Assembly: GCF_020524485.1 (NCBI RefSeq)
Contig: NZ_JAIVLF010000004.1
Coordinates: 496,001-560,000 of the forward strand
Length of the DNA stretch: 64,000 nt
Direction of reading: 5' to 3'
Origin: Novosphingobium profundi
GTDB lineage: Bacteria > Pseudomonadota > Alphaproteobacteria > Sphingomonadales > Sphingomonadaceae
Each line of letters begins with the position of its first letter. Position 1 is the stretch's first letter. The notes beneath the pieces are model-generated. The model saw nothing but the letters and a program-made list of their open reading frames with translations. It searched no databases and had not been told where the DNA came from. A program made the translations under genes and the position numbers. Below, in pieces: positions 12,396 to 63,950 of this stretch.

Positions 12396-12490
12396 GCCAC
12401 CTCGCCTGTCTTTACAAGCGCCGCACGCTTGGCGCGAGGCAGACAGTTCGGGAGCCCGAGGGCAATGGCCCTCGGAACAATGTTCTTCTT
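12396..12490 (-). repeat. Dispersed palindromic element, copy R1 (partial: hairpin 1 and decayed hairpin 2)
   Basis: Hairpin 1 is perfect: CCGAGGGC and GCCCTCGG around AATG at 12456-12475. Read on the minus strand it starts 16 bases after the photolyase stop and is followed by GGCTCCCGAACTGTC, then a decayed second palindrome near 12396-12440. The third hairpin is missing. The left end GGAAGAAGAACATTG matches the reversed right end of copy R3. Confidence 0.75.
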
Positions 12491-30370: not shown

Positions 30371-30519
30371 CGAAAGAGATATATCAAGGGGTCATCACCC
30401 CTTGACCCCGAACCGGGCGACCTCACCTTATCTCAGCCAGACTGGCGCAGGGAAGGTGAGGTCTGCAAATTTGGGGAGCCCGAGGGCGATGGCCCTCGGA
30501 ACCGATATCTTTGAATCTC
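30371..30519 (-). repeat. Dispersed palindromic element, copy R2 (complete)
   Basis: All three hairpins are present: hairpin 3 TCAAGGGG/CCCCTTGA at 30384-30405, hairpin 2 ACCTCACCTT/AAGGTGAGGT (10 perfect pairs) at 30420-30462 and hairpin 1 CCGAGGGC-GATG-GCCCTCGG at 30480-30499. Relative to the minus-strand PilZ gene at 30547, hairpin 1 begins 47 bases after its stop. Hairpin 2 has an inner CCAG/CTGG stem. Confidence 0.88.
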
Positions 30520-43760: not shown

Positions 43761-43898
43761 CGATGTCTCGCCTAAAGATGCGGCGAAAATGCCGCGCTCC
43801 TAAGCCTACCTCGCCGTGCGGGTATACGGGGAGCGCAACCGGCTCCATAGTGGAGCCAAGACCGGGGGACCGGCCTAAGAATGACAAGAATGAAGTCA

Positions 43899-44038
43899 AA
43901 AAAGAAGTTCCGAGGGCCATCGCCCTCGGGCTCCCCGAACGGGCGACCTCACCTTTCGCGCGCCACCTTGGCTGAGAATGGTGAGGTCGACGGTAATAGG
44001 GTCAAGGGGTAATAACCCCTTGAAAAAATACTTCTTCC
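43899..44038 (+). repeat. Dispersed palindromic element, copy R3 (complete)
   Basis: Hairpin 1 CCGAGGGC-CATC-GCCCTCGG at 43910-43929, hairpin 2 ACCTCACC/GGTGAGGT at 43946-43987 and hairpin 3 TCAAGGGG-TAATAA-CCCCTTGA at 44002-44023. The right end continues AAAAAATACTTCTTCC, whose reverse complement matches the left end of R1. It is the one clear copy whose hairpin 1 does not follow a stop codon closely. Confidence 0.9.
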
Positions 44039-44060
44039 ACCCTGCCCGCTACCCACAACG

Positions 44061-44091
44061 AAAAACGCCCGAAGGCCGAGCCCCCGGGCGT
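44061..44091 (-). terminator. Terminator of alaS
   Basis: ACGCCCG and CGGGCGT pair around a 13-base GC-rich loop, and on the alaS strand the stem is followed by T5. It starts 41 bases after the alaS stop. Confidence 0.75.
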
Positions 44092-54231: not shown

Positions 54232-54341
54232 CATGCGCGCCTGGCGACCCGTTTCGACCCGCACCTGCCCCGGCTGCCATCATCCCCGCGAAGACGAGGA
54301 TCGGGAACCTGGCGGCTGCAGGGCGCCCCCAAGGGTTGTCA

Positions 54342-54420
54342 TTCAGAAGGTTATTCCGAGGGCCATCCCCGTCGGGCTTCCGGACTTGTGAACTCAGTCC
54401 ACGCACGCAATCGCCGCCGG
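54342..54420 (+). repeat. Dispersed palindromic element, degenerate copy (R4')
   Basis: Starts CAGAAGGTTATTCCGAGGGC like the left ends of R6 and R4, but the second arm reads CCCCGTCGG so hairpin 1 is broken, and only traces of the following GGCTCCCC-like spacer can be followed. Confidence 0.55.
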
Positions 54421-54475
54421 GATACGTAAGTCCGCCGTTCTTCCCACACGAATGGAGGCAGCCTACTTCGGAAAA

Positions 54476-54575
54476 CGGGCGCCCTCGCCTTGTACGGCCA
54501 AGGTCGCGCGAACAAAGTGCGCGAGACACTATGGGGAGCCCGAGGGCGATGGCCCTCGGAATCATCCCTTCATTT
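54476..54575 (-). repeat. Dispersed palindromic element, copy R4 (partial)
   Basis: Hairpin 1 CCGAGGGC-GATG-GCCCTCGG is perfect at 54540-54559 and lies 32 bases beyond the stop of the minus-strand gene at 54592. Hairpin 2 has decayed and hairpin 3 is absent. Confidence 0.75.
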
Positions 54576-61349: not shown

Positions 61350-61491
61350 GTCAGGAGATAATCCGAGGGCCATCGCCCTCGGGCTCCCCGAACTGTCCAC
61401 CTCACCTTCGACGCGCCAGCGTAGCTGAGAAAGGCGAGGTCGCCCATTTTGGGGTCAAGGGGTAATAACCCCTTGGAAAAATTCTTCTCCT
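61350..61491 (+). repeat. Dispersed palindromic element, copy R5 (complete)
   Basis: Hairpin 1 CCGAGGGC-CATC-GCCCTCGG at 61363-61382, hairpin 2 ACCTCACCTT/AAGGCGAGGT (one mismatch) at 61399-61440 and hairpin 3 TCAAGGGG-TAATAA-CCCCTTGG at 61455-61476. Hairpin 1 begins 17 bases after the moaB stop. Confidence 0.9.
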
Positions 61492-63805: not shown

Positions 63806-63950
63806 CAGAAAAGGATGATTCCGAGGGCCATTGCCCTCGGGCTCCCCGAACTGTCTAGCTCACCTTTCGCCGGCCGCCCTGGCTGAAAATGGTGAGGTCG
63901 CCGATTCCGGGGTCAAGGGGCGATGGCCCCTTGGAAAATCCTCTTCCTTC
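63806..63950 (+). repeat. Dispersed palindromic element, copy R6 (complete)
   Basis: Hairpin 1 CCGAGGGC-CATT-GCCCTCGG at 63821-63840, hairpin 2 with arms near 63857 (AGCTCACC, one mismatch) and 63891 (GGTGAGGT), and hairpin 3 TCAAGGGG/CCCCTTGG at 63913-63934. Its ends (GAAAAGGATGATTCC and, reversed, GAAGAGGATTTTCC) match each other almost fully. Confidence 0.9.

Follow-up and report, generated by a model that had tools for sequence, protein, structure and literature searches.

A high-copy, two-ended hairpin repeat located behind stop codons in Novosphingobium profundi

A stretch of 64,000 nucleotides from the 4.64-Mb genome of Novosphingobium profundi (contig NZ_JAIVLF010000004.1, positions 496,001 to 560,000), referred to here as the window, contains an intergenic repeat of about 140 bp at 43899-44038. 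This locus raises the question of what kind of element the repeat is, how it may have spread and why it is kept. The initial annotation, based on the letters of the sequence, had described it as a three-hairpin, MITE-like element with six clear copies in the window.

The repeat is real and exceeds chance expectation. Allowing up to three mismatches, the first hairpin with its tag (H1) matched the window seven times against 0.02 expected, and the third hairpin (H3) matched four times against 0.00 expected. The unit measured ~113 bp between the outer edges of its two hairpins, with flanking tracts of ~20 nt each. Read inward from either edge, the order of parts was a purine-rich tract (often containing GATT or a similar motif), a hairpin of 8 bp whose loop is YATY, then CCCC as the tag, and last the inner end sequence (~20 nt per end). 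H1 is CCGAGGGC-CATY-GCCCTCGG followed by GCTCCC, and H3, read inward, is CAAGGGG-N-YATY-N-CCCCTTG followed by ACCCC; the polarity of the two is identical, with the stem outside, then the YATY loop, and CCC(C) inside. The middle hairpin is formed by pairing of the inner end sequences of both ends (ACCTCACC and GGTGAGGT). The ends face each other and differ, commonly carrying AACTGTC at one and AATNGGC at the other. Folded as RNA, 43885-44045 reached -72.9 kcal/mol (z = -6.75); the structure comprised the three hairpins plus a closing stem.

The window contained four complete units, one unit with two H1 ends (H1-H1) and one lone H1 (Table 1). The repeat was present at all six places reported initially, with three hairpins in the four complete units only. 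The supposed three-hairpin copy at 12396-12490 proved to be a lone H1 with a weak middle hairpin. The copy at 54476 does carry the repeat, but it pairs with a degenerate H1 that had been overlooked, and the two form one H1-H1 unit. The four loop variants that had been listed (GATG, AATG, CATC and CATT) reduce to two loops, CATC and CATT, read on two strands. The outer 20 bases, described as near-inverted repeats of each other, were purine-rich on the left and pyrimidine-rich on the right, but the two tracts of one copy matched no better than swapped tracts (8.05 own, 8.40 cross; 49 H1-H3 copies). Copy-specific pairing of the outer tracts was likewise rejected, as at least four left-right pairs were found in 64/80 own, 63/80 shuffled and 70/80 swapped combinations, and in 46/80 distal flanks.

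Table 1. Units of the repeat and their parts in the window (window positions), and sites elsewhere at which facing ends enclose genes.
Feature	Location	Strand	Details
Complete H1-H3 unit	43910-44022	+	H1 43910-43929; tag GCTCCC 43930-43935; middle hairpin ~43936-43997; AGGGT tag and H3 43998-44022
Left tract of the 43910-44022 unit	43890-43909	+	Purine-rich; composition kept, sequence not
Right tract of the 43910-44022 unit	44023-44042	+	A run, then pyrimidine-rich
Complete unit, reversed	30385-30499	-	H3 and tag 30385-30409; H1 and tag 30474-30499
Complete H1-H3 unit	61363-61475	+	17 nt past called ORF end 61345
Complete H1-H3 unit	63821-63933	+	20 nt past called ORF end 63800
H1-H1 unit	54356-54559	.	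Left H1 54356-54381 degenerate (3 mismatches); right H1 54534-54559 intact
Single H1 and tag	12450-12475	-	Weak middle hairpin 12396-12449; second end not found
Gene-enclosing site	G000:C6:129610-131400		VOC-family protein and orphan ORF (Pfam)
Gene-enclosing site	G000:C6 ~328726-329370		129-aa orphan
Gene-enclosing site	L064 1573-2721, N. sp. BW1		GNAT acetyltransferase gene between two facing H1 ends, 1.1 kb apart

Across the genome containing the window (G000), H1 with its tag yielded 213 matches at ≤2 mismatches versus one for a reversed-pattern control, and H3 yielded 172, which bears out the proposal of a dispersed high-copy family. At the same threshold, an H1-like match was present in 60 of 195 genomes of the genus, with high counts in few of them: 196 in G408, 122 in G474, 119 in G444, 86 in G531, 43 in G580, 34 in G430 and 31 in G557. 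Many genus genomes had just one to four matches, and such counts say little. H3 was found in nine of the 195 genomes, with 156 matches in G408, 103 in G474, 38 in G430, 11 in G440 and one to three in four others besides those of G000. The H1-H3 form is found chiefly within one group of Novosphingobium species, and other species have H1-like matches whose basal pair differs. Among the matches listed, the basal pair of H1 elsewhere in the genus was often G-C or T-A, not C-G. The prevailing form among the matches listed for G444, G432 and further genomes of the genus was an H1 variant whose basal pair is G-C (GCGAGGGC...GCCCTCGC); G444 combined its 119 H1 matches with an absence of H3.

A search for H1 at ≤1 mismatch in 397 genomes of the family matched only the own genome. 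A covariance model, applied with strict filters to 12 candidates per genome, matched three of 298 family genomes, namely the own genome and, weakly, two of another genus (best E 4.3e-6 in G163 and 2.7e-5 in G212). The carriers among the matches listed (at least 35 stretches) were Novosphingobium organovorum, N. sp. BW1 and N. profundi. One plasmid record, from N. sp. MBES04, carried the element at two places.

The position of the element relative to genes was characterized in 104 units from the own genome, part of which had been picked by similarity to the window copy; the figures are from a stricter recount in which no palindrome was counted twice. Of these units, 88 were paired (80 H1-H3 and 8 H1-H1), and they lay between convergent genes in 50 cases, tandem genes in 28 and divergent genes in 8, with two at a stretch edge, giving convergent placement in 50/86 once the edge units are left out. 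None of the 88 overlapped a called ORF by more than 20 bp; genes were called with our own simple codon-usage caller, not a standard program. In the contiguous stretches alone, the convergent/tandem/divergent distribution was 26/20/4 of 50, compared to 70/254/108 of 432 gaps of ≥60 bp, a background that includes the element-bearing gaps (chi-square test, p = 3e-11). The median distance from stop codon to unit was 25 nt, with 81 of 128 stops within 30 nt, and the median distance from start codon to unit was 133 nt, with 1 of 44 within 30 nt. The context was alike in G408 (25/17/3 of 45 paired units). In the named loci, where some palindromes are included twice, the rows were convergent in 26 cases, tandem in 11, divergent in 4 and at an edge in 5.

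The element resembles the intrinsic bidirectional terminators of the same genome in having a hairpin between convergent genes, with an A/purine tract before it and a T/pyrimidine tract after it. Unlike them, it has three hairpins and a repeated sequence, and it lacks a T run directly after the hairpin: T made up 4-41% at the first five positions after H3 (49 copies), and pyrimidines prevailed from position 7 or 8. The GC hairpin directly followed by a T run that marks a canonical intrinsic terminator was therefore not found in the element itself. Our own terminator test found no canonical intrinsic terminator beside the element in 24 of the 28 convergent gaps that contain it; such terminators occurred in 4/28 gaps with the element versus 13/37 without (p = 0.087). 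Taken by itself, the terminator evidence is weak.

Hairpins and tags are conserved at loci between G000 and G408, while the interior drifts. At 32 orthologous H1-H3 pairs, for which the own copies had been selected for intact hairpins and the G408 ones just for a gap of similar length, identity was.992 in the H1 stem,.953 in the H1 loop and.974 in its tag. In the same set it was.953 in H3,.938 in the GGGGT tag,.805 in the middle, and.867 and.781 in the outer tracts, with.981/.990/.854 at the three codon positions between these genomes. Identity of the middle was lower among paralogs (.714) than among orthologs.

In the stretch around the window, H1 mismatches amounted to 2/140 positions in G408 (7 H1) versus 34/180 in G474 (9 H1; p = 1.5e-7). 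For the seven H1 compared in both relatives, the counts were 2/140 versus 27/140 (p = 4.9e-7), and without one insertion-altered G474 site, 2/120 versus 20/120 (p = 6e-5). The hairpins were thus held in one species pair and not in the third species at these few sites. The divergence of H1 in G474 is near its synonymous divergence (codon position 3 identity.819), and this genome retains its 122 H1 matches overall despite the erosion at the sampled loci.

In an alignment of 60 copies, 88.6% of cells paired. None of 500 shuffles reached the observed covariation score, the number of paired cells or that of cells with both sides changed; the number of pairs changed on both sides was reached by 1/500 shuffles and that of further pair types by 25/500. 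Sliding the structure by two columns gave 16 pairs changed on both sides versus 14 in place. H1 hardly varies; H3 closes with C-G in 38 of the 60 copies and with T-A in 14. The initial annotation had taken variable loops over constant stems as a sign of selection on pairing, but the H1 stem is nearly identical within the genome, so the window copies do not demonstrate it. Such selection would rest on the differences between species (C-G, G-C or T-A at the base of H1 among the matches listed) and on the H3 closing pair rather than on loop variation.

Frequent inversion of the middle core was rejected, as 58 of 80 own copies were direct, 2 inverted, 6 ambiguous and 14 unscored. Among the orthologs, 0/33 scored pairs passed as inverted (three rows skipped). 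To the eye, the G408 counterpart of the 43910 unit appears to have an inverted core, but the score was tied (.68/.68).

Signs of movement were looked for by comparing orthologous places. In the G408 stretches, 48 of the 104 own units could be mapped, 43 of them with the same length within 25 bp; conversely, 47 of 62 G408 units had a mapped place in the own stretches, and 45 of these agreed in length within 25 bp. None of the 48 own or 47 G408 mapped units corresponded to a clean empty site. The length exceptions that were viewed were truncations, rearranged content or other DNA, such as the 775 bp of other DNA in G408 at C6a 62572. At another place, 516 bp of the own genome contain two units where G408 retains just one H1 remnant. 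A whole unit lies in the opposite orientation in G408 at C6a 67914, and at C6a 102729 the G000/G408 comparison set an H1-H1 unit against an H1-H3 unit with a further H1.

No target duplication was apparent, as the longest direct repeat across the unit averaged 5.53 for own and 5.47 for cross combinations (86 copies). Likewise, a Y1 transposase (RAYT, Y1_Tnp, PF01797) was detected in none of 10 carrier genomes at E ≤ 0.01; the controls were detected in 6 of 14. The MITE-like description therefore holds for the terminal inverted repeats, with facing ends in the same order of parts, and for a few longer versions that enclose genes; it does not extend to target duplications, to clean empty orthologous sites or to an autonomous element, none of which was established. 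Copy number, shape and the mixing of ends suggest that the element has been mobile, although movement was not seen happening.

A scan for facing ends 260-4000 bp apart covered 786 kb of G000, parts of G408 and G474, and 35 named loci. It returned eight rows, of which four (three sites) were kept, with inner motifs at both ends (Table 1), and three were dropped as neighbouring elements. At the G408 counterpart of the 129-aa site, the two ends are shared and so, imperfectly, are ~75 to 85 bp of sequence inward of either one; in between lie a DUF695-RraB gene and a transposase (DDE_3/HTH) in two frames. At the counterpart of the VOC site, the left end is shared, the right end was not found, and the content is unrelated, consisting of a TonB_C-domain ORF and an ORF without assignment. 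The DDE_3 and TonB_C labels are from a Pfam scan of four ORFs of the G408 cargo sites, in which one 129-aa ORF among the four, at first taken for part of a transposase, had no match. We tentatively read the DDE transposase, which we take to be IS630-like, as a separate insertion between the ends; it could also be the missing enzyme of the element.

The GC-content of the cargo was.49-.57, compared to.665 in the window. A blastn comparison of the own cargo DNA with the examined stretches of G408 and G474 gave no match at E 1e-5, and in plasmid look-ups with two cargo proteins every match was under 60% identity. Integron-like attC sites in the cargo were considered and rejected, as the GCGGACATT motif was not enriched (6 versus 4 in the reversed control, 786 kb). 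At G000:C6 ~328726-329370, imperfect direct repeats of ~30 bp bound the cargo inside the element ends, and they are partly shared in G408 around different cargo. The eighth row of the scan, at N. profundi locus L089 (1533-5490), places an H1 opposite an H3 at a distance of 3.9 kb, and the DNA in between has four called ORFs; the inner motif is proper on the H3 side and doubtful on the H1 side. This row was neither kept nor dropped.

Among known systems, the closest in build are the REPIN/GTAG REP doublets with their RAYT transposase, as presented in the portions of PMC3116915 and PMC3733652 used here. Like them, the element is a high-copy, extragenic, inverted pair of short palindromes with a clover-type fold, an unpaired tag at the foot of each hairpin, and hairpins more conserved than the spacer; in our data these features correspond to 88/104 paired units and to the fold of the window copy. 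Unlike them, it has a GGGG/CCCC tag instead of GTAG, most sampled units have two different hairpins, a few copies enclose genes, and the Y1 transposase is absent in 10/10 carrier genomes. In the 60-copy alignment, the foot of H1 reads GCTCCC and that of H3 reads GGGGT or something close to it, and a GTAG-type tag is absent. Membership in the REP/RAYT group was thus rejected on the tag and the transposase.

The CGTC REPs of alphaproteobacteria are defined, in the part of PMC3733652 used here, by a CGTC (or TGTC, CCTC) terminal motif, A-T first pairs and a CCA tail. The element shares with them the 8-bp stem and 4-nt loop (8-9 bp and 4-5 nt in CGTC REPs), the predominance of facing dimers, the lack of a linked transposase and the position mostly between convergent or unidirectional genes. 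In contrast to these REPs, the foot of its hairpins lacks CGTC, TGTC or CCTC, its TGTC lying a few bases inward as part of the inner end sequence, and it has no CCA tail. H1 also has no A-T in its first two pairs, starting with two C-G pairs in 60/60 rows; H3 starts with C-G, then two A-T pairs. Membership in the CGTC REPs was therefore rejected on foot tag, first pairs and tail. The main text of PMC3733652 makes no mention of Novosphingobium.

Rfam gave no match in the window at the gathering score and just sub-cut-off matches for 43850-44090 (E of 0.48 or more). In the open-access literature, GCCCTCGGGCTCCC, GGGGTCAAGGGG and CGAGGGCCATCGCCCTCG occur in some papers, none of them on the element by title, and the best matches included no title describing a Novosphingobium or Sphingomonas palindrome or MITE. 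We file the element as a GGGG-tagged variant of the REP doublet.

Considering these data together, we lean, at slightly better than even confidence, towards a short, non-autonomous, two-ended element of REP-doublet type that spread via its folded single strand by means of a non-RAYT enzyme acting in trans and was kept as a two-way 3'-end structure. Its assignment to the REP-doublet kind follows from the build, the tag, the facing order, the place behind genes and the lack of protein content in most sampled copies. In spreading, the folded single strand, in clover form, would be copied by a putative trans-acting enzyme other than a RAYT. In retention, the hairpin stack, transcribed from either neighbouring gene, would form the 3' end of the message, where it might halt transcription or block exonucleases from both sides; place and conservation point to such a two-way role. 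Against the REP-doublet explanation, no transposition event was seen and no linked enzyme was established, tracts exchanged between copies pair at least as well as the purine and pyrimidine tracts of one copy, and the covariation signal is limited by the further pair types and by the two-column slide. With no T run directly after H3 and a difference in terminator frequency at p = 0.087, the case for a terminator role is weak. The erosion of H1 at the sampled G474 loci indicates that these copies are not needed in every species.

Part of the same evidence fits other explanations. A non-autonomous transposon or mobile insertion cassette, with the ends as terminal repeats, minimal copies empty and some carrying passenger genes moved by a transposase, is unlikely in our view. 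It would account for the genes between facing ends at three sites, the unrelated genes in both G408 counterparts, the low cargo GC and the DDE transposase lying between two ends. However, passenger genes between inverted ends without a common transposase, a feature that would be shared with mobile insertion cassettes, are accompanied by no parent IS, mostly empty sampled copies and no target duplication; in addition, the gene-enclosing units are few, have no transposase in common, and the second G408 site lacks its right end. We regard with considerable doubt a related idea, in which the elements would be docking sites of a dispersed gene-cassette system behind stop codons, mostly empty but able to house small foreign genes (acetyltransferase, VOC, DUF695-RraB, TonB_C, orphans) at fixed chromosomal places and to swap them over time via a putative non-RAYT enzyme. 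It is equally improbable that the element is a structured 3' feature of the cell itself, serving to stabilise RNA or to terminate transcription in both directions, that was never self-mobile, spread by ordinary duplication and was retained by selection. The place behind stop codons, the conservation of the hairpins at loci and the stable fold argue for it, but ~200 scattered, near-identical H1 copies, varied end combinations, the whole-unit inversion at C6a 67914, the enclosed genes and the erosion in G474 argue against it. Very unlikely is a double-stranded DNA binding site for a putative chromosome protein and kept by that protein, by analogy with E. coli REPs, which are binding sites for gyrase. 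H1 and the tags keep their exact sequence and not pairing alone, another H1 sequence prevails in some other species among the matches listed, and constraint exists between G000 and G408 and not at the sampled loci in G474; still, such a role would not require so tight a link to stop codons.

RAYT transposases are the usual explanation for REP doublets, and here ~200 units of the same build, with another tag, occur with no RAYT in 10 tested carriers. Being held at loci in two species and decaying at a few sampled loci in a third, the REP-doublet-like element offers a route to whatever factor maintains or spreads repeats of this kind. Should the ends indeed take the enclosed genes along when they move, carrying genes would be a further property of REP-like repeats.

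Two minor observations concern single hairpins. Beside the H1-H1 unit of the window, at 54278-54302, lies a degenerate CGTC-REP-like palindrome, CATCATCCCCGCGAAGACGAGGATC, with three mismatches to an approximate CGTC-REP pattern (chance expectation 0.00). In N. organovorum (L067 3382-3492), the middle hairpin is near-perfect from tag to tag (CCCCAACTGTAGACC...GGTCTACAGTTGGGG), and the tags are thus able to pair together too.
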